Source: Acidibrevibacterium fodinaquatile (GTDB taxonomy: Bacteria > Pseudomonadota > Alphaproteobacteria > Acetobacterales > Acetobacteraceae). From it: a DNA stretch of 64,000 nucleotides. The position numbers and the translations under genes are program-made. The notes below the pieces were generated by a model. That model worked only from the letters and a program-made list of their open reading frames with translations, was not told the origin of the DNA and made no database searches. The stretch is taken from contig NZ_CP029176.1 in assembly GCF_003352165.1 (NCBI RefSeq), forward strand, positions 930,001 through 994,000, read 5' to 3'. Within the stretch, counting starts at the first letter, position 1, and each line of letters begins with the position of its first letter. This document shows positions 1,036-48,036 of the stretch, one piece after another.

Positions 1036-1062
1036 GACGTTCCCCTTTTTCCAATCGATGAT

Positions 1063-1093
1063 TTGACAATATATTCGCATCATCGTATATACG
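1063..1093 (+). promoter_or_regulatory. Sigma70-like promoter and palindromic operator of sqrR
   Basis: TTGACA at 1063-1068, a 17-bp spacer and TATATA at 1086-1091 form an almost consensus promoter for the rightward sqrR-efflux operon. The -10 box is embedded in a perfect 10-bp palindrome CGTATATACG (1084-1093). ArsR-family repressors typically bind AT-rich palindromes over the -10, so autorepression by the adjacent regulator is a natural inference. The site lies in the shared 95-bp region and could also control the divergent sqr gene. Confidence 0.6.
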
Positions 1094-1130
1094 CAAGCAC
1101 GAAAATATATGGTGACGGAAAAAACACGCG

Positions 1131-1478
1131 ATGACGGCGAGCCTAGAAGCCATGCACCGGGCGGCGGACCAAGCGAGCGAGCTGTTGAAAGCCCTGGCGA
1201 GCCGCCATCGCCTGCTCATTCTCTGCCATCTCGCGGAAAGCAAATGTTCGGTCGGCGAGCTTGCGAGCGCGCTCGATCTTCGGGACTCGACGGTCTCGCA
1301 GCATCTCGCCCTGCTGCGCCGCGACGGTCTTGTCGCTGCCGAGCGTGACGGGCAGACGGTCTGGTACTCGCTCGCGAGCGGCCCGGCGCGCGACGTTCTC
1401 GACACCTTGTTTGCGATTTACTGTCCCCGTGACGTGGCGCGGAAGCCGCGCGCAAAGGCCCTGCAGACACGATATTGA
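1131..1478 (+). CDS. sqrR: ArsR/SmtB-family persulfide-responsive repressor (SqrR/BigR type)
   Basis: 115-residue winged-helix repressor. The recognition helix region is DSTVSQHLALLRRDGL (about 52-67), followed by a beta-wing (ERDGQTVWYSL). Cysteines at C32 (LLILCHL) and C98 (FAIYCP) match the pair that in SqrR/BigR forms a tetrasulfide with reactive sulfur species and releases DNA; C39 is extra. Metal-binding motifs of the ArsR or CadC type (CVC) are absent. It is divergent from a sulfide:quinone oxidoreductase and leads an operon with an RND efflux pair, so it likely derepresses sulfide detoxification and export. The ligand assignment is from family knowledge and the cysteine positions, not tested here. 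Confidence 0.8.
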   Translation: MTASLEAMHRAADQASELLKALASRHRLLILCHLAESKCSVGELASALDLRDSTVSQHLALLRRDGLVAAERDGQTVWYSLASGPARDVLDTLFAIYCPRDVARKPRAKALQTRY

Positions 1479-1514
1479 TCGGTTTCCTATTTTCGCAAAC
1501 CCGAAGGCACTCCC

Positions 1515-2504
1515 ATGCGCATCCCTTTCCTGCTCGCCATCGGACTTCCCGGGCTCATCACGCCGGCTCTGGCGGCAGAGAGCTTCACCGTTCAATCCAC
1601 CAACCTGACCGATGAGAAAGCGGTGTTCGCGACCGTCGAAAGCCGCGACGTGGTGCCGGCGAGGACGCGCATCGGCGGCACCATCGCGACGCTGACCGTG
1701 CGCGAGGGCGACGAAGTGCATGAGGGCCAGGTGATCGGCGTTGTCGCCGACCAGAAACTCGGCTTGCGCATCCAGGCGCTCGATGCCGAGATCAATGGTC
1801 TCAAATCCCAGCTCGCCCAGGCCAAGGTCGATCTCGGGCGCGCCCAGGCGCTCGCCAAAGGGGGTGCGGTATCACGCCAGACTCTCGATCAGGCGGCAAC
1901 CGCGGCGCAGGTCGCGGCAAGCTCGCTGAAGGCGCGTCAGGCCGAACGCGCGCTCGCCGAGCAGCAGCTCGACGAAGGGCAGATCCAGGCCCCGACCAGT
2001 GGCCGCGTGCTCGCGGTGCCGCTCACCATCGGCTCGGTGGTGATGCCGGGCGATGCCGTCGCGACCGTTGCCGCCAAGAATTATGTCTTGCGGCTGCGCG
2101 TGCCCGAGCGCGCCACCGGCTTTCTCAAGGCCGGTGAGACGGTGCGGGTCGATGGCCGCGATCTCGGCGCCGAGGGCGCGAAATTCGGCACCGTCACCCT
2201 GGTTTACCCGCGCATCGATGATGGCAACGTCGTCGCCGATGCCGATATCAAGGGGCTCGGCGATTATTTCGTCGGCCAGCGTATCGAGGTTTGGATCCCA
2301 GCCGGCGAACGCGATAGCTTCGTCATCCCGAGCCATCTGATCGAAACCCGTTTTGGCATCGATTACGTCCGTCGCCGCGCGTCCGATGGCACGATCGACG
2401 CCATTCCCATTCAGCGCGGGCGCGATTTTCCGACACCCGACATGCCTGATGGGATCGAGGTTCTTTCCGGCCTCAGCGCCGGAGATGTGCTGGTGAGACC
2501 ATGA
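1515..2504 (+). CDS. RND efflux periplasmic adaptor (HlyD/AcrA family)
   Basis: 329-residue membrane-fusion protein linking an inner-membrane RND pump to an outer-membrane channel. An N-terminal signal peptide (ending PALAAES, about residue 21) is followed by a lipoyl half-motif (REGDEVHEGQVIGVV), a coiled-coil hairpin (about 85-150, rich in Q/A/L), the second lipoyl half and beta-barrel domains. The last codon overlaps the permease start by 4 bp (ATGA), indicating translational coupling. It is shorter than AcrA (about 397), as is common for alphaproteobacterial adaptors of this subgroup. No outer-membrane TolC gene is adjacent. The substrate is unknown; the regulator suggests a sulfur-linked or electrophilic compound. 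Confidence 0.85.
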   Translation: MRIPFLLAIGLPGLITPALAAESFTVQSTNLTDEKAVFATVESRDVVPARTRIGGTIATLTVREGDEVHEGQVIGVVADQKLGLRIQALDAEINGLKSQLAQAKVDLGRAQALAKGGAVSRQTLDQAATAAQVAASSLKARQAERALAEQQLDEGQIQAPTSGRVLAVPLTIGSVVMPGDAVATVAAKNYVLRLRVPERATGFLKAGETVRVDGRDLGAEGAKFGTVTLVYPRIDDGNVVADADIKGLGDYFVGQRIEVWIPAGERDSFVIPSHLIETRFGIDYVRRRASDGTIDAIPIQRGRDFPTPDMPDGIEVLSGLSAGDVLVRP

Positions 2505-5500
2505 GTCTCGGTCTTTCCGGGCGGCTCGCGCAGGCGACGATCCGCTCGCCGCTGACCCCGCTCTTTCTTCTCGCGGCCCTTGCCGCCGGGCTGATCGCGC
2601 TGCTTACCATCCCGCGCGAGGAGGATCCGCAAATCCACGTGCCGATGGTCGATATCATGGTCACCGCCAACGGCCTGGCTGCCGCCGACGTCGTCGAATT
2701 GGTGACCAAGCCGCTCGAGACCATCGTCAAGGCGATCCCCGGGGTCGAGCATGTCTATAGCCAGAGTCTCGATGACCGCGCCGTGGTGACGGCACGCTTC
2801 GTCGTCGGCACGGGTGAGGATGACGCGGTGCTCAGGGTCAATGACAAGATCCGCGCCAATCTCGATCGGATTCCGATCGGCATTCCGCAGCCGATGATCG
2901 TCGGGCGCGGGATCAACGATGTCGGCATCGTCGTCTTGACGCTCTCGCCAACGCCGCAAGCCGCCGCGCGCTGGTCGCAAGCCGATCTGTCGCAGCTCGC
3001 GAGCAAGCTGCAATCAGAGCTGATCAAGGTCGATGATATCGGCCTCAGCTATATCGCCGGCAGCGATCCCGAGGAAATCCGCGTCGAGCCCGATCCCGAG
3101 AAACTCTCGCTTTATGGCGTGACCTTGCAGCAGCTTTTGGCAAAGGTGCGCGATGCCAACCGCTCGTTCGTCGCCGGGATGGTGCGCGAGGGTGGCCAAA
3201 TGAATACCGTGACCGCCGGGCAGACATTGTTTGGCGTCCCCGATATCGGCCTTCTGCTCATCACCACGCGCGACGGCCGCCCGGTCTATGTGCGCGATCT
3301 CGCGCGGATCGTGGTTGGCGGGGCAGTGGTCGAGAATCATGTTTTCAACCTCGCCCCAGTCGCGCATGAGGGCTGGCGCGAGACGCCGGCGGTCAGTCTC
3401 GCGCTCGCCAAGCGCTCCGGCGCCAATGCCGTTGTCGTCGCAAACGCCATCGTCGCGCGCGTCAAATCCCTCGAAGGACAACTCATCCCATCCGACATCA
3501 AGGTCGAGGTGACACGCAATTACGGCGACACCGCGAATGAAAAGGCCAATGAGCTTTTGTTTCATCTTGGTCTTGCGACGGTTTCGATCGTGGTCCTCAT
3601 CGCCTTCGCGATCGGCTGGCGCGAAGGGGTGGTGACGCTCGTCGTCATTCCGACGACGATTTTGCTCACCTTGTTCGCCGCCGAGATGATGGGCTACACG
3701 ATCAACCGCGTCTCACTGTTCGCGCTGATTTTCTCGATCGGCATTCTCGTCGATGATGCCATCGTCGTGGTCGAAAACATTGCTCGCCATTGGGCGATGG
3801 ACGATGGCCGGCCACGCATCCAGGCGGCGATCGAAGGCGTCGCCGAGGTTGGCAACCCGACCGTCGTCGCGACCTTGACGGTGATCACCGCCTTGTTGCC
3901 GATGCTGTTCGTCTCTGGCCTGATGGGGCCCTACATGGCGCCGATCCCGGCCAATGCGTCGGCGGCGATGCTGTTCTCCTTCTTCATCGCCATGGTGATC
4001 GCGCCGTGGCTGATGCTCAAGCTGTCGCCGGAGCGCAAAGGGCGGAAGGCCACGGGCCATGAGACCCACGGGCATGAAACCCACGCGCATGGCCAGGACC
4101 GGCTCGGCAGACTCTATCGCCGCGTTGCCGGGCCGCTGATCCGCTCGCGCCGGCTTTCACTCGTCTTTCTGGTGCTGGTCGGCGTCGCGACGCTCGCGGT
4201 CTGCGTTCTCTTTTACACCGAGAACGTGACGGTGAAACTTTTGCCGTTCGACAATAAATCCGAGCTTTCGGTGCTGCTCGATCTTCCCGCCGGCGCGAGC
4301 CTCGAAGAAACCGAACAACGCCTGTCCGCCGCCGCCCGCATTGTCGAAACCTTGCCCGAGGTGCGATCGATCCAGCTCTACGCCGGAACGCCGGAGCCAT
4401 TCGATTTCAATGGTCTTGTGCGCCACTATTATGCGCGTGAGACCCCGTGGCTCGGTGATTTGCACATCGTTCTCGCGCCGAAAGCCGACCGCAAGCGGCC
4501 GAGCCACACCATCGCGCTCGATCTGCGGCGCCGGCTCGCGCAATTAGCGTTGCCGCCAGGGGCGGTCTTGAAAGTGGTGGAAATGCCGCCCGGCCCACCG
4601 GTGCTTGCGACCCTGCTCGCCGAAATTTACGGCCCCGACGCCGCGACGCGTCGCGATGTTGCCGAAGAGGTCAAAAAGATCTTCAAATCGGTGCCGTTCG
4701 TCGTCGACGTCGATGATTCCTACGGCCATCGCGCGCCGCGCCTGCACATCGCCATCAATCAGCCGGAAATCGATTATTTCCACGTCAACCAGAGCGATGT
4801 CTACGATACCATTCAAGCATTGTTTGGTGGTCTGCCGGTGGGCTATTCCTATCGCGGCGCCGAGCGTTTGCCGATCGAGATCGCGATCGGGCTTCCCAAA
4901 CGCGACTTGAGTTGGAATGAACGGTTGGCCGCAACGCCAGTGCCCGCCAACACCCTGCCTGGCGCGCGCGGCGTCGTCGAACTCGGCCAATTGGTGAGCG
5001 TGACGCGCGAGCGCGGCTCGCGAACGATTTTCCGCCGCGACGGGCACGCCGCCGATATGGTGACCGGCGAACTCGCCGGCAGTTTCGAGGCGCCGATCTA
5101 CGGCATGCTCGCGGTCGATAAGCTGATCGCGGCGCATGATTGGGGAAAAATTCCGAAACCGACCGTGAGCTTTCGCGGCCAGCCGGAAAACGAGGCAACG
5201 CCGACCCTGCTTTGGGATGGTGAGTGGGAGATCACCTATGTCACGTTCCGTGACATGGGGGCTGCTTTCATGGTCGCGATCCTCGGGATCTACATCCTCG
5301 TCGTCGCGCAGTTCCAGAGTTTCAAGATACCGCTGATGATCCTAACGCCGATCCCGCTGACCTTGATCGGCATCATGCTCGGCCACTGGCTGCTGGCCGC
5401 GCCCTTCACCGCGACCTCGATGATCGGCTTCATCGCGCTCGCCGGCATCATCGTGCGCAATTCCATCCTGCTCGTCGATTTCATTCGCCATGGCCGCGGC

Positions 5501-5725
5501 GAAAAGCCGCTGCACGAGGTCTTGGTCGATGCCGGCGCCATCCGCTTCAAGCCGATCCTGCTGACTGCGCTTTCGGCGATGATCGGCGCTGCGACCATCC
5601 TCCCCGACCCGATCTTCCAAGGCCTTGCGATCTCGCTCTTGTTCGGCCTCGCCTCCTCGACGCTCCTGACCGTCCTCGTGATTCCGGCGATCTATGTCGT
5701 GCTGCGCGATCCGCTCGGGCGGTAA
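2501..5725 (+). CDS. RND efflux permease (AcrB/HAE-like)
   Basis: 1074-residue proton-driven exporter with two repeats of six membrane helices and large periplasmic loops. The TM4 proton-relay aspartates are seen in FSIGILVDDAIVVVEN (about residues 411-426). TM10-12 include ILVVAQFQSFKIPLMIL and GIIVRNSILLVDFIRHG. A histidine-rich stretch GHETHGHETHAHG (about residues 515-528) lies in the cytoplasmic linker between the two halves, unusual for HAE pumps and suggestive of metal contact. It is encoded with its adaptor in the sqrR operon. The periplasmic porter domains resemble hydrophobe exporters more than CzcA metal pumps, so substrate class stays open. Confidence 0.85.
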   Translation: MSLGLSGRLAQATIRSPLTPLFLLAALAAGLIALLTIPREEDPQIHVPMVDIMVTANGLAAADVVELVTKPLETIVKAIPGVEHVYSQSLDDRAVVTARFVVGTGEDDAVLRVNDKIRANLDRIPIGIPQPMIVGRGINDVGIVVLTLSPTPQAAARWSQADLSQLASKLQSELIKVDDIGLSYIAGSDPEEIRVEPDPEKLSLYGVTLQQLLAKVRDANRSFVAGMVREGGQMNTVTAGQTLFGVPDIGLLLITTRDGRPVYVRDLARIVVGGAVVENHVFNLAPVAHEGWRETPAVSLALAKRSGANAVVVANAIVARVKSLEGQLIPSDIKVEVTRNYGDTANEKANELLFHLGLATVSIVVLIAFAIGWREGVVTLVVIPTTILLTLFAAEMMGYTINRVSLFALIFSIGILVDDAIVVVENIARHWAMDDGRPRIQAAIEGVAEVGNPTVVATLTVITALLPMLFVSGLMGPYMAPIPANASAAMLFSFFIAMVIAPWLMLKLSPERKGRKATGHETHGHETHAHGQDRLGRLYRRVAGPLIRSRRLSLVFLVLVGVATLAVCVLFYTENVTVKLLPFDNKSELSVLLDLPAGASLEETEQRLSAAARIVETLPEVRSIQLYAGTPEPFDFNGLVRHYYARETPWLGDLHIVLAPKADRKRPSHTIALDLRRRLAQLALPPGAVLKVVEMPPGPPVLATLLAEIYGPDAATRRDVAEEVKKIFKSVPFVVDVDDSYGHRAPRLHIAINQPEIDYFHVNQSDVYDTIQALFGGLPVGYSYRGAERLPIEIAIGLPKRDLSWNERLAATPVPANTLPGARGVVELGQLVSVTRERGSRTIFRRDGHAADMVTGELAGSFEAPIYGMLAVDKLIAAHDWGKIPKPTVSFRGQPENEATPTLLWDGEWEITYVTFRDMGAAFMVAILGIYILVVAQFQSFKIPLMILTPIPLTLIGIMLGHWLLAAPFTATSMIGFIALAGIIVRNSILLVDFIRHGRGEKPLHEVLVDAGAIRFKPILLTALSAMIGAATILPDPIFQGLAISLLFGLASSTLLTVLVIPAIYVVLRDPLGR

Positions 5726-5726
5726 A

Positions 5727-5769
5727 AGAAAGCCGTTCTTTTTTGAAAAAAAGAACCAAAAAACTTTTA
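5727..5769. repeat. AT-arm of composite intergenic repeat (copy 1)
   Basis: Hairpin with an 11-nt arm beginning GTTCTTTTTT, a 2-nt loop and its complement AAAAAAGAAC, followed by CAAAAAACTTTT. It fills the gap between the convergent RND permease and the metallohydrolase; the latter's TAA stop is at the edge of the repeat. The same module recurs at 16241, 25221, 32165 and 57711. It could serve as a weak bidirectional terminator. Confidence 0.8.
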
Positions 5770-6603
5770 TCTTGAGATGGCGGAGTCGAGGCGGGCTTCG
5801 CTGTCGGGATCGTGCGCGGGTAGATAAATGAAGGGGCGTGCCGCGGCGGCTGACGCCTCGGCGAAAGCGGCGATGGTGGCAAGGGTTTTGCGCGCCGAGC
5901 GCGGGTTGGGGCAAACGCCGTCGATGGCGCGCGCAGCCAGCGCCGCTTCGGTGTAGGAGGCATCGCCGGCGATCAGAAAGCGCTGCGCCGGTGTCGTCAC
6001 CAGAACCGAAACATGGCCCGAACTATGGCCCGGCGTCGGCACGATCATCACCGCGCCATCCGAGGTCAGCGCCATTGCGCGCGGGAAGGGCGCGGGCGGG
6101 TTGGCATCGAAGCGGATGAATTCGGGGCGGAAACCAGGGGGCAAATGGTCGAGAAAATAGCCGCGCACCTGCCCCGCCACCCCTTGCGCGAGTTGCCATT
6201 CGATGCGGCTGACGAGCGTGCGGAGCGGCGGCAGATGCGCAAGGCCGCCGGCGTGATCGGTGTGGAAATGCGTGAGCACGACCGCACGAAGATCGGACGG
6301 CGCAACGCCGAGGGTTCGAAGTTGGACATCGATTGCCTGCTCGTCCGCGATCGCGAAACGCACGGCAAGGCGGAAATAAGGGTGCCAGGGCGGGAAATAG
6401 CCGCGCGTCATCGCGCGCGGGCTCTCGCCGCTATCAACCAGGAACAGCCCTTCCGGATGCTCGATCAGAAAAGCGAGGATCGGCAACGCAGCACTCCAGC
6501 CGCGTTCGAGGAACGGGCGCAGGCGGCGGAACGGCGCGCGCCCGATGATCTGGCTTGGGCGCACGAAGACCGAGCCGGTGCGCAAAGCATGCACGCGGAT
6601 CAT
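5767..6603 (-). CDS. Metallo-beta-lactamase-fold hydrolase (AHL-lactonase-like)
   Basis: 278-residue MBL-fold enzyme. The zinc motif THFHTDHAGG (about residues 111-120) is followed by a downstream His in GHSSGH and the metal-bridging Asp in IAGDASY. The arrangement (HxHxDH, H, D, H) matches the AttM/AiiA-like group that includes N-acyl-homoserine lactonases, but many members hydrolyse other lactones or esters, so the substrate is not assigned. No signal peptide. Its ATG overlaps the rsmI stop (ATGA), so it is the distal gene of a two-gene unit. Confidence 0.75.
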   Translation of the reverse strand: MIRVHALRTGSVFVRPSQIIGRAPFRRLRPFLERGWSAALPILAFLIEHPEGLFLVDSGESPRAMTRGYFPPWHPYFRLAVRFAIADEQAIDVQLRTLGVAPSDLRAVVLTHFHTDHAGGLAHLPPLRTLVSRIEWQLAQGVAGQVRGYFLDHLPPGFRPEFIRFDANPPAPFPRAMALTSDGAVMIVPTPGHSSGHVSVLVTTPAQRFLIAGDASYTEAALAARAIDGVCPNPRSARKTLATIAAFAEASAAAARPFIYLPAHDPDSEARLDSAISR

Positions 6604-7508
6604 GCGGTGTCCTCCGCCTGCAAGGCGAGTGCCCGCGCATAGACCTCGCCGCGCGGCCGGCCGGTCAGCGCGCTCGCCCGCGCCACCGCCGCCTTGAGCG
6701 TGCCTTCCGCCAGGGCCGCCCGCAGAATCGTATCGAGGGCGGCGGCGTCGGATGGCGGCGCGTCCTCGGCCGGGGCGACGACGAGGGTGATTTCACCCCG
6801 TGCCGGGTGATCGGCGTAGTGGGCAGCAAGGGCGGGAAGGGGGCCGCGCCGCATTTCCTCGAAACGCTTGGTCAGTTCGCGCCCGACCGCAGCCGTGCGC
6901 GGGCCGAAAACGTCGGCGAGGTCGGCCAAGGTCGCGGCCAGGCGATGCGGCGCCTCATGCCAGATCAGCGTCGCCCGCAGCCCGGCATGTTCGGCGCTGC
7001 GCAAGGTCGCGAAGGCCCGTTTCCGAGCGGTTGCGCGGGGTGGCGGAAAGCCGAGGAAAAGAAAGGGCTGCGGCGGCAGGCCCGAGAGGGTGAGCGCGAG
7101 CAGCGCCGCATTCGCGCCGGGAATCGCCGCAACCGGCAGCCCCGCCGCGATCGCCGCGCGCACCAGCCGGTAGCCGGGATCGGAGACCAAGGGCGTGCCG
7201 GCATCCGAGACCAGGGCAATCCGCTCCCCCCGGCCGAGGCGTTCGAGCAATTCGGGGATGCGTGCCTCTTCGTTATGCTCGTGCAGCGGCGACAGCGGTC
7301 GATGGATCGCGAAGGCGCGGCAGAGCCCGGCGGTAACCCTGGTATCCTCGCATAAAATGAGGTCGGCGGCGCGCAAGACCGCAAGCGCGCGGGCACTGAT
7401 ATCGCCGAGGTTGCCGAGTGGCGTGGAAACCAGCACTAATCCCTCCGGCGCCGGGGATAAGGCCGGCGCGTTGTCGCGGGGAGATGGGTCGCATGCGGCT
7501 TCAGACAT
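6600..7508 (-). CDS. rsmI: 16S rRNA (cytidine(1402)-2'-O)-methyltransferase RsmI
   Basis: 302-residue tetrapyrrole-methylase-fold enzyme that methylates C1402 of 16S rRNA. Diagnostic segments: LVLVSTPLGNLGDIS (about 25-39), ILCEDTRVT, LVSDAGTPLVSDPGYRLV and IPGANAALLAL. The N-terminal 24 residues before LVLVST are poorly conserved and rich in Pro/Ala. The ATG at 7508 lies 16 bp inside the divergent lipoprotein gene starting at 7493, so either the two 5' ends overlap or rsmI starts slightly downstream at a GTG/TTG. In many proteobacteria rsmI is divergent from the penicillin-binding-protein activator gene, as here. Confidence 0.92.
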   Translation of the reverse strand: MSEAACDPSPRDNAPALSPAPEGLVLVSTPLGNLGDISARALAVLRAADLILCEDTRVTAGLCRAFAIHRPLSPLHEHNEEARIPELLERLGRGERIALVSDAGTPLVSDPGYRLVRAAIAAGLPVAAIPGANAALLALTLSGLPPQPFLFLGFPPPRATARKRAFATLRSAEHAGLRATLIWHEAPHRLAATLADLADVFGPRTAAVGRELTKRFEEMRRGPLPALAAHYADHPARGEITLVVAPAEDAPPSDAAALDTILRAALAEGTLKAAVARASALTGRPRGEVYARALALQAEDTA

Positions 7509-23593: not shown

Positions 23594-23789
23594 GGCACCA
23601 ACTCCTCGAAAAGCGCAGACGAAAGGCGCTGGTTTTGTTCACCAAATCGGCCGCCGCCGCAAGCGCGCGATGCGGCACGGCTTTACGCCGGGCCTCGGCG
23701 CCCCTATTTGACCGAGATCAAGCCAGGCGGCGGCGCGCCGATGCCCGGCTCCCTGGGTTGGCCCCCGGCCCCACGACAAGGATGACCGC

Positions 23790-24584
23790 ATGAGCCGCCG
23801 GCTTTCCCCCGCTCTGCTGCCGCTCACTCTATCGCTTCTCGCTCTTCTCGTCACCGCCTGCGCCACGCCCCCGCCGGCCGATGACAAGGAGGCGCTCGCC
23901 GATTACCGGCAGACCAATGACCCGCTGGAACCGACCAATCGGTTTTTCTACAAGGTCAATGATCAGCTCGACGCGGTAACGCTGAAACCGGCGGCGGAAG
24001 CCTATCGTTACGTGCTCCCCGATGGCGCGCGTGAGAGCGTGCACAACATGCTCGTCAATCTCAACGACCCGACGGTGTTCTTCAACGATGTCGTCGAGGC
24101 CGAGCCACGGCGCGCCGGTGACACATTGATGCGCTTCCTGATCAACTCGACCTTTGGGATCGGCGGGTTTTTCGATGTCGCGAAGCATTGGGGCTATCCC
24201 AATCACGACGCCGATTTCGGCATGACGCTGGGGCTCTATGGCGTGCCACCGGGACCCTATTTGTTCATTCCCGTCCTCGGCCCGTCCAATCCGCGCGATC
24301 TCGCCGGCTTCGGCGTCGATATCGCCGATTGGCCGTTCACCTGGATGGTGAATGGTACCACGGTTTACGCGCTGGAATGGGCCTATTATGGCCTCAACGC
24401 CGTCGATGTGCGCTCACGCGTGCTCGATTCGCTCGATCAGGTGCAAAAAACCGCGCTCGACCCCTATGCGACCATTCGCAGCCTCTATCGCCAGCGCCGC
24501 GAGAGCCAGATCGAGGCGATCCGCAATGACCACCGCGCCACCGTCCCCGCCTGGTTCCCGGCGCCGGCGACGCAAACCGAGTAA
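23790..24584 (+). CDS. mlaA: MlaA (VacJ) phospholipid-transport lipoprotein
   Basis: 264-residue outer-membrane lipoprotein with lipobox LVTAC (Cys about residue 24). The family core DPLEPTNRFFYKVND, INSTFGIGGFFDVA and DFGMTLGLYGVPPGPYLFIP is intact. MlaA removes misplaced phospholipid from the outer leaflet and hands it to periplasmic MlaC, whose gene follows by 32 bp. The inner-membrane MlaFEDB genes are not in the window. Confidence 0.93.
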   Translation: MSRRLSPALLPLTLSLLALLVTACATPPPADDKEALADYRQTNDPLEPTNRFFYKVNDQLDAVTLKPAAEAYRYVLPDGARESVHNMLVNLNDPTVFFNDVVEAEPRRAGDTLMRFLINSTFGIGGFFDVAKHWGYPNHDADFGMTLGLYGVPPGPYLFIPVLGPSNPRDLAGFGVDIADWPFTWMVNGTTVYALEWAYYGLNAVDVRSRVLDSLDQVQKTALDPYATIRSLYRQRRESQIEAIRNDHRATVPAWFPAPATQTE

Positions 24585-39277: not shown

Positions 39278-39311
39278 AAAAAACCCCGGCCAGGTTGCCC
39301 GGGCCGGGGTT
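39278..39311 (-). terminator. Rho-independent terminator of the cytochrome operon
   Basis: On the minus strand a perfect 10-bp stem AACCCCGGCC/GGCCGGGGTT (39302-39311 and 39282-39291) is followed directly by a run of seven T. This is a classic intrinsic terminator 15 bp past the cytochrome c stop. The last A of the kinase-like gene's TGA is the first base of the A-run in the plus strand. Confidence 0.85.
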
Positions 39312-39326
39312 GCGGGGATCACATCG

Positions 39327-39836
39327 TTAGTCGTGCAGGGTTTCGAGATAGGCGATGACGGCGTGGCGGTTCCATTTGCGCTTGAGGCCGGCGAAATGCA
39401 TCGCAACGCCTGGGATCCAGGCCTGCGGATCCCAGAGATAATGCGTCAATTCGTCGGTGGTCCACACCTTGCCGAAATTCTTCATCGCCTCGGAATAGGC
39501 AAAGCCGGGTTCGGTCCCCGCCTTGCGGCCAACGACGCCGAAGAGACTCGGCCCGGTGCGGTTGACGCCCTTCTTGTCGGAATGGCAAGCCGCGCAGATG
39601 TGATTGAACACCTCGTGCCCGTGGGCGATCATTGCCGGCTTGTTGTTTTCGTCTTCCTCGTCGGGGACTTGTGCTTTTGCCATCATGCCGGTGGCGACCA
39701 CGAGGCTGAAGGCAAAGGCGCCGAGCCCGAGCGTAAGGCCGCGTTTCCAGCCGCTATACCGGGTGTTCGCGTCAGGGGTTTGGGTCAACACGTCACTGCT
39801 CCCTCTGTCTGTTTTCTGCTGCATAACATGCCCCAT
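39327..39836 (-). CDS. Membrane-anchored class I cytochrome c
   Basis: 169-residue monohaem cytochrome. An uncleaved signal anchor (GLTLGLGAFAFSLVVATGMM, about 33-52) is followed by haem motif CAACH (C81, C84, H85) and a distal Met (M146 in GVAMHFAGL), as in mitochondrial-type cytochrome c (cytochrome c552/CycM-like). Anchored at the inner membrane, facing periplasm. It is 2 bp after the Cyc2-like gene, in one operon, so it could accept its electrons. The start may be ATG 39824 instead of 39836. Confidence 0.85.
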   Translation of the reverse strand: MGHVMQQKTDRGSSDVLTQTPDANTRYSGWKRGLTLGLGAFAFSLVVATGMMAKAQVPDEEDENNKPAMIAHGHEVFNHICAACHSDKKGVNRTGPSLFGVVGRKAGTEPGFAYSEAMKNFGKVWTTDELTHYLWDPQAWIPGVAMHFAGLKRKWNRHAVIAYLETLHD

Positions 39837-39838
39837 TC

Positions 39839-41236
39839 CTAGAAAGCCATCCAGACATAGAGATAAAGCGTGTTCATGCCGCTGGCATTGTGGCCAAAGC
39901 CGTCGAAATTGTTGGTGCCGCCGTTGAATTCGAGATAGTCGGTGTATTGCAGGCCGACCTTGAGGTTCTTCTCGAAATCCCAGACGGTATCAGCCGATTT
40001 GCCGAACGGCACCCAATCCGCCTCCCAGATGAGCGACTGCGTGTTGGGGCTGCCGTTGGCGCTGCCGACCACCGACGCCGGCGCATACAAAGTCTTGTCG
40101 GAGGTGCCCCAGATGCCGTTATAAGCCATCGTGAAGCCGTAGGTGTTTTTGTAGTAATAATCTGCTGCTATCCGGAAGTTTTCCATCTCGTTATAGGATT
40201 TGTCGGCGAGGCCAGCGTTGTGCATGGCATCGAGCTGTGCCTGCTGCTGCAATATATTCGTATCTATCGCAAAAAGATGATTGCCGTTGCTGTACTGATA
40301 GTTCGCATCGAGACCATAGTCCAAGTAGGTGTTGGTCCCCGGCATCGCGATGACGTTCGCGGCCATCGGCGCATAGAAGGCAACGCCACCGACTTCGAGG
40401 AAGTTATTACCCCACTGCTTTTGGTAGGCGACGCGGAGATACGGTGCTCCTCCTTCGACCTCGCCAAGCGAGGGGACCGAACCTTCACCAAGCGCCGAGA
40501 ACCAGGTCGGGCTCAGCGATTTATAGGCGCCGCCCTCGATGTACCAGGTCTGGTTGATCCACCAGTAATTGGTGAGGCCGATCGTGTTGGCGCCGCCCAA
40601 AGCCTGGATCGCGAACGGCGCCGTGACCGGGCCGGGCGAAACCGCCGAACTCGCGTAAGGATAAGCGTAATGATAAAGCGTGTTGTAGGGATCCTGCACC
40701 GTCGGCCCGTCGTTCAGGTCGAGACCGATGCGGACATCCTGGCTTGAGATCGAGAATTCATGGGTCAGACGAAGGTCGCTGTCGTCGAGCGCGACCGAAC
40801 TCCCATCCTGCGCGGCGGTGATTTGGATCATGCCGCCGGCATAATCGGAGAGCCGCCCGGCGAGAAACAGCGATATCTGATCGAGGTTGAAATTGTTGTT
40901 GGCCCGATAATCATTGGCCGGTGAGCCGCCTTCCACGGGGTCGGCGGTGTTGTTGAACGACGCGAAGGCCATCGCCGAAATCGGGATATAGGGATAAGGG
41001 GTATCGCCGGCGGTCAGCGTGTAGCCGCCCATCTTGAAAGCGATTCCAAACGGCGTGAGCTGCGGCCCGAACGCACCGATATGGCAGGAGGTGCAGGGCT
41101 GATCGGTCTGGCGGGCAAAGGCCGGCACCGCTTCGGCGCGGTCGACCGAAAATAGTACCGTGAGCGCCGCCACCAACCCCCAAAGCCATTTCGCCGGCCA
41201 TTTCCCTGGAGAATGGCGGGAAAACAAACCTCTCAT
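39839..41236 (-). CDS. Fused monohaem cytochrome-outer membrane porin (Cyc2-like)
   Basis: 465 residues. Signal peptide (cleavage after RAEA, about residue 36), then VPAFARQTDQPCTSCH with the haem motif at residues 48-52, only about 12 residues into the mature protein, followed by FGIAFKMGGYTL and a long Gly/Asn/Tyr-rich alternating beta region ending in WMAF with a terminal Phe, the outer-membrane barrel signature. Haem at the N-terminus plus a porin of about 400 residues is the Cyc2 layout (Fe(II) oxidase of iron-oxidisers). The wider family includes uncharacterised members, so the donor is not assigned. ATG 41236 has GAGGAG upstream. Confidence 0.75.
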   Translation of the reverse strand: MRGLFSRHSPGKWPAKWLWGLVAALTVLFSVDRAEAVPAFARQTDQPCTSCHIGAFGPQLTPFGIAFKMGGYTLTAGDTPYPYIPISAMAFASFNNTADPVEGGSPANDYRANNNFNLDQISLFLAGRLSDYAGGMIQITAAQDGSSVALDDSDLRLTHEFSISSQDVRIGLDLNDGPTVQDPYNTLYHYAYPYASSAVSPGPVTAPFAIQALGGANTIGLTNYWWINQTWYIEGGAYKSLSPTWFSALGEGSVPSLGEVEGGAPYLRVAYQKQWGNNFLEVGGVAFYAPMAANVIAMPGTNTYLDYGLDANYQYSNGNHLFAIDTNILQQQAQLDAMHNAGLADKSYNEMENFRIAADYYYKNTYGFTMAYNGIWGTSDKTLYAPASVVGSANGSPNTQSLIWEADWVPFGKSADTVWDFEKNLKVGLQYTDYLEFNGGTNNFDGFGHNASGMNTLYLYVWMAF

Positions 41237-41297
41237 CTCGATCTCCTCTTTCACATAACGAGCACGTGAAGGATCGGCACTATATTAGATGAACTCT

Positions 41298-41311
41298 TTG
41301 ATCTCGATCAA
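41298..41311. promoter_or_regulatory. Perfect FNR/Anr box
   Basis: TTGATCTCGATCAA matches the consensus TTGAT-N4-ATCAA at all ten defined positions. Its centre lies about 68 bp upstream of the Cyc2-like ATG (41236), with AT-rich -10-like sequence (TAATATAG on the minus strand, about 41287-41280) in between. This suggests low-oxygen activation of the cytochrome-porin operon. arsH ends 62 bp to the right and reads toward it, so the operon on the left is the only gene start it can serve. Confidence 0.7.
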
Positions 41312-41373: not shown

Positions 41374-42090
41374 TCAGAGCCGGCTTGGCAGGCAAAACGC
41401 CTCTTTCCGCTCGCTATAGCGGTCGGTGAGATAATCGGCGCGGTCGCGGAGCAGCCAGGTAAAGCGGACCAGCTCTTCCATCACGTCCACCAAGCGGTCG
41501 TAATAGGGCGAGGGCAGCATCCGCCCGGCCTCGTCGAACTGCTCATAGGCCTTGGCGACGCTGGACTGGTTGGGGATGGTGACCATCCGCATCCAGCGCC
41601 CGAGCAAGCGAAGCGTGTTGACCGCGTTGAAACTTTGTGACCCGCCCGAGACCTGCATGACGGCGAGCGTGCGCCCCTGGGTCGGGCGCAGCGCACCGAG
41701 CGAGAGCGGCAGCCAGTCGATCTGGTTCTTCAAGACCGCGGTGATCGCGCCATGCCGCTCTGGGCTGCACCAGACCTGTCCCTCCGACCAGAGTGAGAGC
41801 GCCCGAAACGCCGCGACCTGCGGATGATCGGCGGGCACGCTATCGGCCAGCGGCAAGCCATGAGGGTCAAAGACGCGCGCCTCGGCGCCGAGATGACGCA
41901 GGATGCGCGCCGCCTCCAGTGTCAGAAGCCGGCTGTAGGAGCGCTCGCGCAAGGAGCCGTAGAGCAGCAGGATGCGCGGCGGATGGGTCGCGCGGACCGC
42001 CGGCTCCAGCCGCGGCTGATCGGGCGGGGCGAGGAGATCGGCAACAAGCGCGGGGAGGGTTGCGTCCTCGTCCGGCGTCTCGTCAGCCAC
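41374..42090 (-). CDS. arsH: ArsH, NADPH-dependent FMN oxidoreductase of arsenic resistance
   Basis: 238-residue flavodoxin-like protein. [25 protein letters not shown] (FMN phosphate loop) and [22 protein letters not shown] are typical of ArsH, which oxidises methylarsenite or reduces quinones. I use GTG 42090, with GGGGG upstream; the TTG at 42114 would add eight residues. It overlaps acr3 by 8 bp and is the last gene of the ars operon. Confidence 0.9.
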
Positions 42091-43192
42091 GGCGCGCCCC
42101 CGCGTGCCGGGCAATGCCGGCCTCGTACCAGGGGCGGGTGCGGCGGACCAGGGCTACGACGCTCAGCATCACCGGCACCTCCACCAAAACCCCGACCACC
42201 GTCGCCAACGCCGCGCCCGATTGAAACCCGAACAGAGCGATCGCGGCGGCGACCGCGAGTTCGAAGAAATTCGACGCGCCGATCAGCGCCGAGGGGGCGG
42301 CGACACACCATTCGCTGCCGATCGCGCGATTGATGACATAGGCGAGGCCGGCATTGAAATAAACCTGCACGATGATCGGCACCGCGAGCAGAAGGATGAT
42401 GAGCGGTTGCGCGACGATCGCCTCGCCCTGGAGCCCGAACAGCAACACCAGGGTTGCGAGCAGGGCAACGATCGAAACCGGGCCGAGGCGCGCGAGAAGG
42501 CGCGCGAGAGCCGCGTCCCCGCCGGCCGCAAGCAGTCCCCGGCGCCAGATTTGCGCGGCGATCAGCGGGATCACGATGTAGAGCACGACCGAAAGGAATA
42601 GCGTGTTCCACGGCACGGTGATCGCGGAAAGCCCGAGCAGCAGCCCGACGATCGGCGCGAAGGCGAAAACCATGATGGCATCGTTGAGTGCGATCTGGCT
42701 CAGCGTGAAATAGGGCTCGCCCTCCACTAAACTCGACCACACGAACACCATCGCCGTGCAGGGGGCCGCGGCGAGCAGGATCAGCCCGGCGATGTAGCTT
42801 TCGATCTCTCCCTCCGGCAGGAAGGGGCGAAAGAGATGGGCGATGAACAGCCAGCCGAGCAACGCCATCGAAAACGGCTTGACTAGCCAGTTCACGCCCA
42901 CCGTCGCCGCCATACCGCGCCAATGCCGCCCGACCTCAGCGAGCGCTGCGAGGTCGATTTTCAGCAGCATCGGCACGATCATCAGCCAGATCAGCGCCGC
43001 CACCGGCAGATTGACCTCGGCGATGGTCGCAGCACCCAGCCAATGAAACGGCGCCGGCACGACTTGGCCGAGAACGATCCCGGCGACAATGCAAAGCGCG
43101 ACCCAAAGGGTCAGGTAACGCGCGAAAAAGCCGATCCGCGCCGCCGCCGGCTTTGCTGTCGCCAACGCCGTCAGGGTGTTATCCGATGTCAC
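42083..43192 (-). CDS. acr3: Arsenite efflux permease, ACR3 family
   Basis: 369-residue ten-helix As(OH)3/H+ antiporter. The essential cysteine is in [14 protein letters not shown] (TM4) and the conserved glutamate in [18 protein letters not shown] (TM9). Exports arsenite made by ArsC. In the ars operon between arsC and arsH. Confidence 0.95.
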
Positions 43193-43203
43193 GACATGCT
43201 CCC

Positions 43204-43626
43204 TTAGCGGACCCGCCGGCCCGCTTCATCCACCACCACCTCGCCATCCTCCTTGCGGAACGCGCCTTGCTGTGGCGTGGGCAAGAGATCGAGCACCGTC
43301 TCCGACGGGCGGCAGAGCCGGACACCGAGCGGGGTCACAACGATCGGCCGATTGATCAGAATCGGTTGCGACAGCATCGCGGTGATGAGCTGATCATCGG
43401 TCAGCGCCGGATCGTCGAGGCCAAGCTCGTCATAAGGTGTGCCCTTTCGGCGGAGCAGCGCCCGCACCGGAATGCCCATCCGCCGGATCAGGTCAGAGAG
43501 CACCTCACGGCTCGGCGGGGTCTTGAGATATTCGACGATATGCGGGGCGATCCCCGCATTGCGGATAAGGCCGAGGACATTGCGCGAGGTGCCGCAGGCG
43601 GGATTGTGATAGATGGTGACGGTCAT
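43204..43626 (-). CDS. arsC: Glutaredoxin-coupled arsenate reductase ArsC
   Basis: 140-residue ArsC/Spx-fold enzyme reducing arsenate to arsenite with glutathione/glutaredoxin. Catalytic Cys in HNPACGTSRN (C12), with LLRRKGTPYDELGL and NRPIVVTPLGVRLCRP (arginine ligands) typical. The start is ATG 43626; upstream in-frame sequence overlaps arsM. Confidence 0.93.
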   Translation of the reverse strand: MTVTIYHNPACGTSRNVLGLIRNAGIAPHIVEYLKTPPSREVLSDLIRRMGIPVRALLRRKGTPYDELGLDDPALTDDQLITAMLSQPILINRPIVVTPLGVRLCRPSETVLDLLPTPQQGAFRKEDGEVVVDEAGRRVR

Positions 43627-43663
43627 GCTTGCCCGTTCCCCGGCTTGCCGTGTTCGGCTGCGC

Positions 43664-44503
43664 TCATCCGCAGCACGCGCCTGGCGCCGGCGGTATCGCC
43701 TTGCCTTCATGAGGCTTGCGGGCCTCGATGATCGCCGCGGCGACGCATGTCTCGATCCCGCGCCCGGGCGCCCAGGCGGCGATTATTTCTCGGCTGCCCG
43801 GCTTGACCGTGATCGCGATCTCGGTAAATCGGGCGGCGCGGAGCAGCGTCTCAACACGCTCCGCCGGGATGGCGCCGGCAACGCAGCCGCAGAGCAGGGC
43901 CGGATCGGCGCGCAAATCCTCCGGCAGCGGCGCGATGTTCACGACATCGGAAATCGCCACCCGCCCGCCCGGCTTCAGCACCCGGAACGCCTCGCGGAAC
44001 ACCTGCGCTTTATCGGGCACCAGATTGACCACGCAATTGGAGATGATGACATCGGCGACCTGATCGGCGACTGGCAGATGCTCGATCTCGCCGAGGCGGA
44101 ATTCGACATTTTTCGCCCCGACGCGCGCCGCGTTGGCGCGCGCTTTCGCTAGCATCTCATGCGTCATGTCGACGCCGATCACCCGCCCTTCGGGCCCGAC
44201 CGCAGCCGCCGCGAGCAGACAATCGAATCCGGCGCCGCTGCCGAGATCAATGACCGTCTCTCCCGCCTTGAGTGCTGCGATTGCTTGCGGGTTGCCGCAG
44301 CCAAGGCCGAGATTGGCGCCTTCAGGCACGGCGGCGATCTCGGCCGCCGAATATCCCATCTCGCGCGCTTTCGCATCGAGCAGGGTCTTCTCCGCATCGG
44401 CGCAACAGGAGGAGGCAGGGGCTTCGCAACCGCTCGGCGCGCCGGCGGCGATGCTGCCATAGCGCGCGCGTACGAGTTCCTTTACGTCCACACTCGGTGT
44501 CAT
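43664..44503 (-). CDS. arsM: Arsenite S-adenosylmethionine methyltransferase ArsM
   Basis: 279 residues. SAM site [16 protein letters not shown]; ArsM-specific [11 protein letters not shown]; arsenic-binding cysteines in [11 protein letters not shown] and LLCGCVAGA, plus the N-terminal SSCCADAEK. Converts As(III) to methylated and volatile forms. The start at ATG 44503, with a GAGAGG ribosome site, overlaps the arsR stop by 4 bp. Confidence 0.93.
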
Positions 44504-44862
44504 CGGTAGGTCCTCTCCTCGGATGGTGCGGCGTTGCATCCCGGCTCGGTGAAGCAGGCGGTGGTGCCGGCGGCGGCCGATCCGGCGCAGCAATTCTCAG
44601 TAAGATAGGCGAGCAGCGCGTTCATCGCCGCATATTCGGCCGCGTAGATCAGCGATCGGCCTTCGCGCCGGAAGGTGATCAACCCCGCCTGCCTGAGCTG
44701 CGTGAGATGAAACGACAGGGTTGCCGTGGGCACGCCGAGCTGTTCGGCGATCTGACCGGCCGGCAGACCCTCCGGCCCGGCTTGGACGAGGCGGCGAAAG
44801 ACATCGAGCCTAGTATCCTGCGCCAATGCCCCCAAGGCCAAAACGGCGTCTGACTTTTCCAT
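44500..44862 (-). CDS. arsR: ArsR arsenite-responsive repressor
   Basis: 120 residues. Winged helix with LGVPTATLSFHLTQLRQAGL. The As(III)-binding cysteines are not in the alpha3 helix as in E. coli ArsR, but a C-terminal CC...C cluster (ENCCAGS then ACFTEPGC), similar to the Acidithiobacillus ferrooxidans type. First gene of the ars operon; ATG 44862 is chosen because the upstream extension is non-conserved. Confidence 0.9.
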   Translation of the reverse strand: MEKSDAVLALGALAQDTRLDVFRRLVQAGPEGLPAGQIAEQLGVPTATLSFHLTQLRQAGLITFRREGRSLIYAAEYAAMNALLAYLTENCCAGSAAAGTTACFTEPGCNAAPSEERTYR

Positions 44863-44897
44863 ATCTCCAATAATATAAAAATTTTTGCCGACGTCAA
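44863..44897. promoter_or_regulatory. AT-rich ars promoter/operator region
   Basis: On the minus strand TTGACG (44897-44892) and TATTAT about 16 bp later form a plausible promoter, with AAAAATTTTT (a 10-bp palindrome) in the spacer. The -10 is so close to the arsR ATG that a near-leaderless transcript would result. The local AT content stands out from the surrounding DNA. Confidence 0.35.
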
Positions 44898-45055
44898 TAC
44901 CCAGGCAGGCCGGCGCGCGGCGTCGGCCATGCCGTTCCGGAATGGCTTGACCGCAAGGCCGGTTTCGGCCACACAGCCTCCGCTCCGGCGCCGCCTGTGC
45001 CGGCGCGGCTGCCGGCATTCTCCGGTCCCTGCGCGACAAGAGGACGAATTGCGCC

Positions 45056-46243
45056 ATGCGCGATAAGGGCGATTTTCTGTTCACTTCCGAGTCGGTTTCC
45101 GAGGGTCATCCGGACAAAGTGGCCGACCGCATCAGCGACACCGTGCTCGATGCCTTCCTCGCCGCCGACCCCTATGCGCGCGTCGCCTGTGAGACATTGG
45201 TGACCACCAACCGCATCGTGCTCGCCGGCGAAACCCGCGGCCCGGATACCATCACCGCCGAATATCTCGCCCATCTCGCACGCCTTGCGGTGCATGATAT
45301 CGGCTATGACCAGGAGGGGTTTAGCTGGCGCAACGCGCATGTCGAATGCCACCTCCATGCCCAGTCGCAAGACATCGCGCAGGGCGTCGATTCCGCCGGC
45401 AACAAGGATGAGGGCGCCGGCGATCAGGGCATCATGTTCGGCTATGCCTGCCGCGAGACCGAGGCGCTGATGCCGGCGCCGATCTATTATGCCCATCTCA
45501 TTCTGCGCCGGATCAGCGAATTGCGCCGCGCCCGCGACGTCACCGCCGCCGGCCTGCTGCCCGACGCCAAAAGCCAGGTGACGCTCCGCTATCGCGACGG
45601 CAAGCCCGTCGGGGCGACCAGCATCGTCGTCTCGATCCAGCACGTCGCCGAACTGGAGCGCGAGGAAATCAAGCGCCGGCTGTGGCCGATCGTCGAAAGC
45701 TCGCTCCCCGCTGGCTGGATGTGCCCGGAGGCGCAGTTTTACGTCAACCCGACCGGAAAATTCGTCATTGGTGGCCCGGACGGCGATTGCGGCCTGACCG
45801 GGCGCAAGATCATCGTCGATACCTATGGCGGCGCGGCTCCCCATGGCGGCGGCGCGTTTTCCGGCAAGGATCCGACCAAGGTCGATCGCTCGGCCGCCTA
45901 TGCCTGCCGCTATCTCGCCAAAAACGTCGTTGCCGCCGAGCTTGCCGAGCGCTGCACGATTCAGCTCAGCTACGCGATCGGGGTTTCGCACCCGCTTTCG
46001 GTCTATGTCGATCTGCATGGCACCGGGAAGGACGTGGACGAGGCGCGGCTCGAGGCGACACTGCGCGATCTCGTCAATCTCTCGCCGCGCGGCATTCGCG
46101 AGCATCTCCACCTCAACCGCCCGATCTATGTGCCGACCTCGGCCTATGGCCATTTCGGCCGCGAGCCTGACCCCGAACTCGGCAGCTTCACCTGGGAGCG
46201 GACCGATCTCGTGCCTGCGCTCCGCGCCGCGTTCGGGCGCTGA
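45056..46243 (+). CDS. metK: S-adenosylmethionine synthetase
   Basis: 395-residue enzyme making SAM from methionine and [23 protein letters not shown] (N-terminal signature), [17 protein letters not shown] (PPi loop) and [19 protein letters not shown] are all intact. It diverges from arsR with a 193-bp gap and is followed by trmB. Supplies SAM to ArsM and the methionine cycle. Confidence 0.96.
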
Positions 46244-47064: not shown

Positions 47065-48036
47065 ATGACGGTCCAGGCAATTAAAGAGTGTAGACCAAGT
47101 AACATTCAAGAGGCATTCTCAAAATTAGAAGAATTGGCTTTTTCTAAGCAAGAAATCATATTCAGGGGGCATTCTTCATCGAAATTCCGTTTAACCTCCA
47201 CTTTTTCCCGTTATCTTGCCAAAAATAATTGGAGGGTTTGGTCTGGAAAAATAGTAGATGATTTAGTGGCAGACTTTATTGCCAGAAGCCGGTCAAACGA
47301 GCCGACTGCATGGCTGCCGGCTGACATAAAAAATCGTCGGGCGGCAATGGAATTCGCCCGGCATTATGGCGTTCCTTCCCCCCTCATCGATTTTACATTT
47401 TCGCCGTACGTTGCAATATTTTTTGCGTATGATGGGGCTCAATTTGGCTCCGTATGCAACAAGGATGACGATTGCGTTGTTATTTATGCATTGAACACCC
47501 ATGTTTTGGGCGCTTCATGGGTTCATAGAAAATTCAGCAACACGGAATGCAAAAAAAATGAAAAATACGAAGAATATAGAAAATTTATAGGAGCAGAATA
47601 CGATATATTTGACGAATCATGCCCGAGTGGAATTTTAAAACTTATTTATTCTCCAGCAAGCTGGAACAAAAGAATGCAATCTCAGATGGGAAGTTTTTTA
47701 TATGATTCTATTGATCACAATCAATATAATTCATGTGAATCTAAAGAAAGAAGAGTCCTTGAAGATTTTATCCAAGAAATGGAGGTCAATTCGTGTGAAC
47801 GGGAATGCGGAGATCAGCCCATTATAACAAAATTGTTCATGAAGATATCGTGGTCCGAGGAAGTGTTTTGGCGTTTGGAACTAATGGGCGTCACAGGAGC
47901 CCATTTGCTTGGCTGGGACGGAGCCGCAAGGGATACCTGGAACCGACCCATTAGGCAAACGGGTCGGAACTTGCGGGCCAGAATAACCGGGCACGCCTGG
48001 GATCTGGATTTTTTGCGCGATAAGTCGGATTCCTGA
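47065..48036 (+). CDS. FRG-domain protein, probably laterally acquired
   Basis: 323 residues. The FRG domain begins with IIFRGHSSSKFRLTSTF (about 31-47) and includes the hallmark HYGVPSPLIDFTFSPY (about 99-114). FRG domains occur in stand-alone proteins in accessory and defence-type islands; the molecular activity is not established. Codon use is AT-rich for most of its length, unlike every neighbour, while the last 50 codons become GC-rich. GGAG precedes ATG 47065 by 8 nt. No toxin, restriction or integrase gene is adjacent. Confidence 0.7.
   Translation: MTVQAIKECRPSNIQEAFSKLEELAFSKQEIIFRGHSSSKFRLTSTFSRYLAKNNWRVWSGKIVDDLVADFIARSRSNEPTAWLPADIKNRRAAMEFARHYGVPSPLIDFTFSPYVAIFFAYDGAQFGSVCNKDDDCVVIYALNTHVLGASWVHRKFSNTECKKNEKYEEYRKFIGAEYDIFDESCPSGILKLIYSPASWNKRMQSQMGSFLYDSIDHNQYNSCESKERRVLEDFIQEMEVNSCERECGDQPIITKLFMKISWSEEVFWRLELMGVTGAHLLGWDGAARDTWNRPIRQTGRNLRARITGHAWDLDFLRDKSDS

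Follow-up and report, generated by a model that had tools for sequence, protein, structure and literature searches.

A Cyc2-family cytochrome-porin and its cytochrome c partner under a predicted low-oxygen promoter in Acidibrevibacterium fodinaquatile

We analyzed a 64,000-nucleotide stretch of the Acidibrevibacterium fodinaquatile genome (assembly GCF_003352165.1, contig NZ_CP029176.1, positions 930,001–994,000; the whole stretch is called the window below). On its minus strand, a gene for a 465-residue Cyc2-family cytochrome-porin (39839–41236) is followed by a gene for a 169-residue class I cytochrome c (39327–39836), and a perfect FNR/FixK-type box stands upstream of the pair (41298–41311). 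We propose, with about even confidence, that the pair forms an outer-membrane electron conduit that is switched on at low oxygen and draws its electrons most likely from Fe(II). Cyc2 is a leading marker for microbial iron oxidation, and its role in organisms not known to oxidize iron is called an open question in the accessible part of PMC8406198.

The 465-residue protein was assigned to the Cyc2 family from its sequence and its modeled fold. Its gene runs from an ATG at 41236 to a stop at 39839; a longer reading from a GTG at 41254 is also open and would give 471 residues. Behind a plausible signal cleavage site after AEA, the N-terminal region reads VPAFARQT, DQP, CTSCH, IGAFG, and PQL in this order. 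The only CXXCH of the protein (residues 48–52, codons at 41081–41095 on the minus strand) thus lies near the mature N-terminus and begins 11 residues past the cleavage site, where the earlier note on this DNA had estimated about 12; the C-terminal Phe that it described is also present. Cys48, Cys51, and His52 are invariant in a 64-row alignment. Keffer et al. (2021) define Cyc2 by the motif AXPXFAR[Q/K][T/Y], a CXXCH, a PXL placed 4 residues after it, a length of at least 365 residues, and a porin domain, which has 16 strands in Cyc2 PV-1 (PMC8406198, in excerpt). AVPAFARQT matches the motif and stands 3 residues ahead of CTSCH, whereas PQL follows the haem site at a spacing of 5 instead of 4. 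An AlphaFold2 model built from 64 sequences gave a barrel of 16 strands (mean predicted local distance difference test score 85.0, predicted template modeling score 0.83), so that the Cyc2 architecture read earlier from the sequence is borne out by the motif, the single CXXCH, and the modeled barrel. Foldseek matched the model to porins with E-values down to 4.5e-9, the OprP and OprO phosphate porins being among the matches listed; the query template modeling scores of the 50 matches listed were only 0.27–0.48. Pfam and NCBIfam hold no family for the protein at E-values up to 10, and a PDB sequence search returned one non-significant match (E 0.32).

The cytochrome c gene begins 2 bp behind the porin gene on the same strand. 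Its product carries one CXXCH, matches Pfam Cytochrom_C, and has cytochrome c2 1hro as its best PDB match (E 4.6e-26). The earlier description of a membrane-anchored class I cytochrome c at this distance therefore stands for the class and for the gap, but the anchor is doubtful. The hydrophobic segment ends in AKAQ in the window protein and in AKAQ or ARAQ among its close relatives, and appears to be at least as compatible with a cleaved signal peptide as with a membrane anchor. In a loose test that is no census, 30/30 selected cytochrome homologues had an A-x-A at some point past the hydrophobic stretch and ahead of the haem site. The unit is closed by the intrinsic terminator proposed earlier (39278–39311, minus strand), a hairpin with a T run that folds at −26.5 kcal/mol (z −2.48). 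A separate terminator scan did not list this hairpin, presumably because its loop exceeds the limit of that scan.

For the comparison across the family, 124 loci (L001–L044 and L053–L132) were dereplicated at 85% identity to 95. In 54 of these, a cytochrome c homologue is found no more than 1.5 kb from cyc2 and in the same orientation, upstream in 24, downstream in 28, and on both sides in 2. Since the partner recurs while its side changes, this distribution speaks for a functional pairing of cyc2 and cytochrome c in a large part of the family.

The box TTGATCGAGATCAA is a perfect match to TTGAT-N4-ATCAA, as had been noted earlier, and its conservation strengthens that observation. It is perfect in all five loci of the genus that hold cyc2, which is absent from a sixth genome of the genus. 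An alignment of the five promoters showed the box as the longest invariant block, with one varying central base and diverging flanks. The predicted −10 hexamer, GATCCT (41270–41275, minus strand), would set transcription to begin near 41263 and place the box center at −41.5; of the hexamer, the G, the A, and the last T do not vary across the five promoters. TATAGT, 13 nt past the box, was considered as the −10 element and set aside for GATCCT, which stands 22 nt past it, because the latter fits both the invariant columns and the family-wide spacing peak described below. By sequence only, box and hexamer make up a predicted class II promoter of the CRP/FNR type. The host genome (4.04 Mb in four contigs) holds 15 perfect boxes, as compared with 0 for a reversed control pattern and about 2 expected from dinucleotides; many of the other 14 are inside overlapping open reading frames (ORFs), and a gene next to one of them looks PqqC-like by eye. 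The window itself has 2 perfect and 4 one-mismatch boxes, against 0.89 expected for all six. The second perfect box (47711–47724) is inside the ORF 47065–48036, and one of the one-mismatch boxes (23708–23721) stands about 70 bp ahead of the ORF 23790–24584.

The same box recurs across the Cyc2 family. Promoter regions of 360 bp were taken ahead of cyc2 or, where a cytochrome gene precedes it, ahead of that gene. Two of the 95 loci were too short, and among the remaining 93 regions we found 14 perfect and 14 one-mismatch boxes (28/93). Thirty sets of dinucleotide shuffles gave means of 0.1 perfect and 0.8 one-mismatch boxes, with a maximum of 3 at up to one mismatch. Changing the spacer to 0, 1, 2, 3, 5, 6, or 8 left no perfect match, and a spacer of 7 left 2; of seven other palindromes tried on the 93 regions, six had no perfect match. 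Background tiles from the same loci held 4 perfect and 16 one-mismatch boxes among 1568, and the regions upstream of other long ORFs 3 and 4 among 192. In a second set of 31 regions (L134–L166, not dereplicated), the box at up to one mismatch was seen in 7/20 homologues outside the group presumed to be Cyc2 cluster 1 (f38) and in 0/11 within it. Combined, the counts are 35/113 outside the group, 17 of them perfect, versus 0/11 inside. On a 126-row tree, of which 124 rows have a usable region, the box requires at least 27 changes; its distribution is therefore scattered, and it was either gained often or is old and often lost. Resemblance to TATAAT downstream of the 35 boxes peaks at 20 and 22 nt, with means of 2.14 and 2.03 of 6 positions. 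Random rotation of the promoters set the 99% limit at 1.86, and 0/5000 rotations reached 2.14. This spacing is, as predicted from the sequences, that of a class II activator, with the box center near −40 to −42.

A Cyc2 match was found in 81/299 genomes of the window's taxonomic family and in 89/398 genomes sampled from the phylum, 65 of the 89 being in one family, f38. A scan of genome contigs gave at least 549 relatives; the best 80 of 549, which were used, include Rhodopila, Dyella, Rhodanobacter, Nitrosospira, Zoogloea, Thiomonas, and Lysobacter. PXL spacing separates the presumed cluster 1 proteins, with a spacing of 4 in 11/11, from the 117 homologues outside that group (L001–L150, L163–L166, L179, and L180), where it is 5 in 95, 3 in 20, and unmatched in 2. 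The full motif A.P.FAR[QK][TY] is present in only 37/117 of these homologues, many having the Arg replaced by A, E, S, or V. Strict FAR-motif screening would drop the other 80, and Cyc2 surveys may therefore undercount the family.

The earlier note had suggested a phylogeny with Cyc2 clusters 1–3. Our tree (57 rows, 423 columns) contains inferred references for clusters 1 and 2; Leptospirillum, for cluster 3, was not included. The window protein falls inside this tree, which holds presumed cluster 1 and rus-operon-like Cyc2. With three close relatives it forms a clade supported at 100/100, and with L009 a clade at 96/96. The presumed cluster 1 group (7 rows, 100/100) was taken to be Zetaproteobacteria on the basis of the accessible part of PMC7029218. 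The branching order near the root means little, because the root was forced on this group, whose branch is long. L179 (genome G940) was taken as cluster 2 since its neighbors match the rus-operon gene order described in PMC10654088, in excerpt: CoxA-like and rusticyanin-like genes follow cyc2 in the same orientation over a distance of about 9 kb, both scoring below their cut-offs (434.7 bits for the former; 137.2 bits against a cut-off of 146.7 for the latter). L179 belongs to a 13-row clade (98/97) together with the homologue L163 of Acidiphilium cryptum. L163 is carried by plasmid pACRY03 of strain JF-5 (NC_009469.1), which encodes a c-type cytochrome as well as the Cyc2-family protein. L164 (CP084173.1), filed as a plasmid of Acidithiobacillus ferrooxidans YQ-N3, has gene order and coordinates identical to those of L163, suggesting either that the DNA was transferred or that the culture was mixed. 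A search of plasmid DNA yielded 3 short matches.

Candidate regulators and electron acceptors are encoded in the host genome. Three HTH_Crp_2 matches exceed the Pfam cut-off. One of these proteins (in L189) is Fnr-like, with C-x2-C-x7-C near its start and one further Cys, which we read as a pattern expected of an oxygen-sensing Fnr; another (L190) is FixK-like. The scores of the two are far below the NCBIfam equivalog cut-offs. One of the two COX1 genes is ccoN of a cbb3 oxidase (C1:3307975–3309273; 721.9 bits), and a one-mismatch box lies about 300 bp upstream of it. The host also carries RuBisCO (C1:800079–801002; 453 bits) and two Photo_RC genes (C1:3276428–3278108). A rusticyanin-like protein is encoded about 470 kb away (C1:498752–499798; L052 9753–10799) and scores 86 bits against the cut-off of 146.7. 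Universal-stress-protein-like and other genes surround it.

Taken together, these features suggest the following mechanism. As oxygen falls, an Fnr/FixK-type activator would bind the box at −41.5 and start transcription from the class II promoter. The 16-strand barrel, with its one c-type haem near the mature N-terminus, would accept electrons from an extracellular donor, most likely dissolved Fe(II), and the monohaem cytochrome c would collect them in the periplasm. From there they may pass to the cbb3 oxidase at low oxygen and, in the host strain, possibly to the reaction center in anoxic light. We infer the identity and the binding of the regulator, the donor, the direction of flow, and the contact between the two partners. 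The donor is probably Fe(II), because Fe(II) oxidation was shown for one Cyc2 of each of the three clusters (PMC8406198, in excerpt) and because Fe(II) persists at low oxygen. Several observations weigh against this proposal. The box was not seen in 78/113 homologue regions outside the presumed cluster 1 group, and the cytochrome partner is missing in 41/95 loci, 8 of which have cut flanks; a two-haem ORF stands in for it in 2 of the 41. The hexamer GATCCT is poor by consensus, with 3/6 matches to TATAAT. A related palindrome, TTGAC-N4-GTCAA, is also somewhat frequent in the 93 regions (3 perfect and 10 one-mismatch), which makes the exact regulator less certain. Finally, the available part of PMC8406198 warns that distant Cyc2 homologues may have other functions.

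The anaerobic type of the promoter would also suit a conduit running outward, in which quinol electrons would, under anoxia, travel via bc1 and the cytochrome c to the haem of the barrel and from it to Fe(III) or some other acceptor outside the cell. Micro-aerobic reduction of ferric iron is described for Acidiphilium, and in acidithiobacilli Cyc2 and Cyc1 isoforms act in ferric reduction (both from the accessible part of PMC10715153); pACRY03 places a family member and a c-type cytochrome gene in A. cryptum JF-5. That homologue, however, is about 33% identical to the window protein, belongs to another clade, and has no good box upstream (3 mismatches), and for this branch no measurement of reductase activity is cited. 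We consider outward flow unlikely. A role other than electron entry, as a haem-linked porin, in metal handling, or in connection with the neighboring arsenic genes, appears quite unlikely, even though further functions of Cyc2 homologues are contemplated in PMC8406198, as far as its accessible part goes. The arsenic connection comes from a run of arsR, arsM, arsC, acr3, and arsH directly upstream on the same strand (41374–45084), in which acr3 and arsH were identified by NCBIfam and the other three by reading their sequences. A window scan placed a terminator-like site at the end of arsH. Two further genomes of the genus have ars genes beside cyc2 (G185 with arsH, G137 without a detected arsH); none are on the 12.6-kb contig of a third, and none are in the other loci compared. 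Because this synteny was observed only within the genus, the arsenic link was set aside; box and cytochrome partner are conserved far more widely.

It seems quite unlikely that the unit serves the host strain mainly as a photoferrotrophic donor to the reaction center. Besides the two Photo_RC genes and the RuBisCO of the host, such a role is favored by a sister Cyc2 clade that adjoins pufC in two genomes. In G043, one strand carries a bchZ-like gene, two antenna genes, two Photo_RC genes, pufC, a hairpin that looks terminator-like by eye, a Cyc2-family gene, and a cytochrome c gene (L043, G043:C3:13000–24700, 110–6999); this cytochrome c matches that of the window at 49% over 100 residues. In the Acetobacteraceae metagenome-assembled genome bog_908 (L121, 2076–4825), a sister Cyc2 gene (clade 100/100) converges with pufC and stops about 130 bp short of it. 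The linkage to pufC was seen in these two genomes only. The puf-adjacent Cyc2 and cytochrome c are a possible photoferrotrophy module. In the genus of the host, however, the five other genomes have no Photo_RC match, and four of them keep cyc2. Within 20 kb of the host puf genes, no box turned up. Dependence on a reaction center was likewise not backed by co-occurrence over the 299 genomes: 30 have both traits, 51 only Cyc2 and 67 only Photo_RC, and 151 neither (odds ratio 1.33, p 0.33, with relatedness ignored and one of the 30 having a sub-cut-off Photo_RC). Among the 30, G043 shows the only close linkage among the matches listed, as inspected by eye. No report of a Cyc2 cytochrome-porin beside puf genes was found in a literature search made largely without subscription papers. 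In one puf-operon paper, the name cyc2 denotes cytochrome c2.

The inward, low-oxygen conduit preferred here is already known in kind as far as its gene pairing is concerned, because such pairs are reported in PMC10715153. According to the accessible part of that paper, Acetobacteraceae including Acidibrevibacterium have Cyc2 homologues, often beside a mono- or dihaem cytochrome c, and iron oxidation was proposed. Our locus is alike in protein family, taxonomic family, and gene pairing, but it has an FNR/FixK box, of which that part of the paper makes no mention. The recurring low-oxygen promoter, as predicted, goes beyond the published pairing. The literature search, again largely without subscription papers, brought up no account of Cyc2 genes being controlled by Fnr/FixK. 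The cluster 2 Cyc2 of A. ferrooxidans is likewise a fused cytochrome-porin with a neighboring c-type cytochrome, and its rus-operon-like relative L179 shares a tree with the window protein. The partner in the A. ferrooxidans rus operon is the dihaem c4-type Cyc1, whereas ours is a monohaem class I protein; the rus-operon layout is not seen in the window, with no cox or rusticyanin genes behind cyc2, and PXL spacing is 5 here versus 3 in L179. Cyc2 PV-1, a protein of cluster 1, the cluster of the neutrophilic iron oxidizers, is alike in its motif, single haem, and 16-strand porin. The presumed cluster 1 group, in contrast, differs from the window protein in its PXL spacing, its separate clade, and its lack of the box at up to one mismatch.

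In its regulation, the known system that comes closest is pioABC of Rhodopseudomonas palustris TIE-1, an outer-membrane electron inlet under a class II FixK promoter. It has two FixK boxes, one centered at −44.5, it is induced by anoxia, and FixK binds the proximal box (PMC3050613, in excerpt). Its proteins, the decahaem cytochrome PioA and a separate porin PioB, are unrelated to Cyc2. CXXCH occurs in just two window ORFs of at least 80 residues, once in each, and no separate decahaem cytochrome of the PioAB/MtrAB type was found among the window ORFs of that length, the rest of the genome not having been searched. The low-oxygen promoter ties the Cyc2 family to a pioABC-like regulatory logic, and its recurrence predicts that Cyc2 is active under microoxic or anoxic conditions, where Fe(II) persists.

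Beyond the specialized iron oxidizers, the Cyc2 family may tentatively be viewed as an oxygen-switched inlet that feeds the cbb3 oxidase or, in the pufC-adjacent clade, the reaction center. An Fnr/FixK/Anr-type switch in many Acetobacteraceae, Rhodanobacteraceae, and other Proteobacteria is part of this broader proposal and equally tentative. If it holds, purple bacteria would have, besides PioAB and FoxE, a third genetic route to photoferrotrophy, and low-oxygen iron oxidizers would turn out to be numerous and undercounted. The family includes named Dyella and Rhodanobacter strains, which offer testable strains. On the opposite side of the unit from the arsenic genes, a HldE-like sugar kinase gene (identified by NCBIfam) converges on it from the plus strand, and transporter-like genes are also located on that side and strand.

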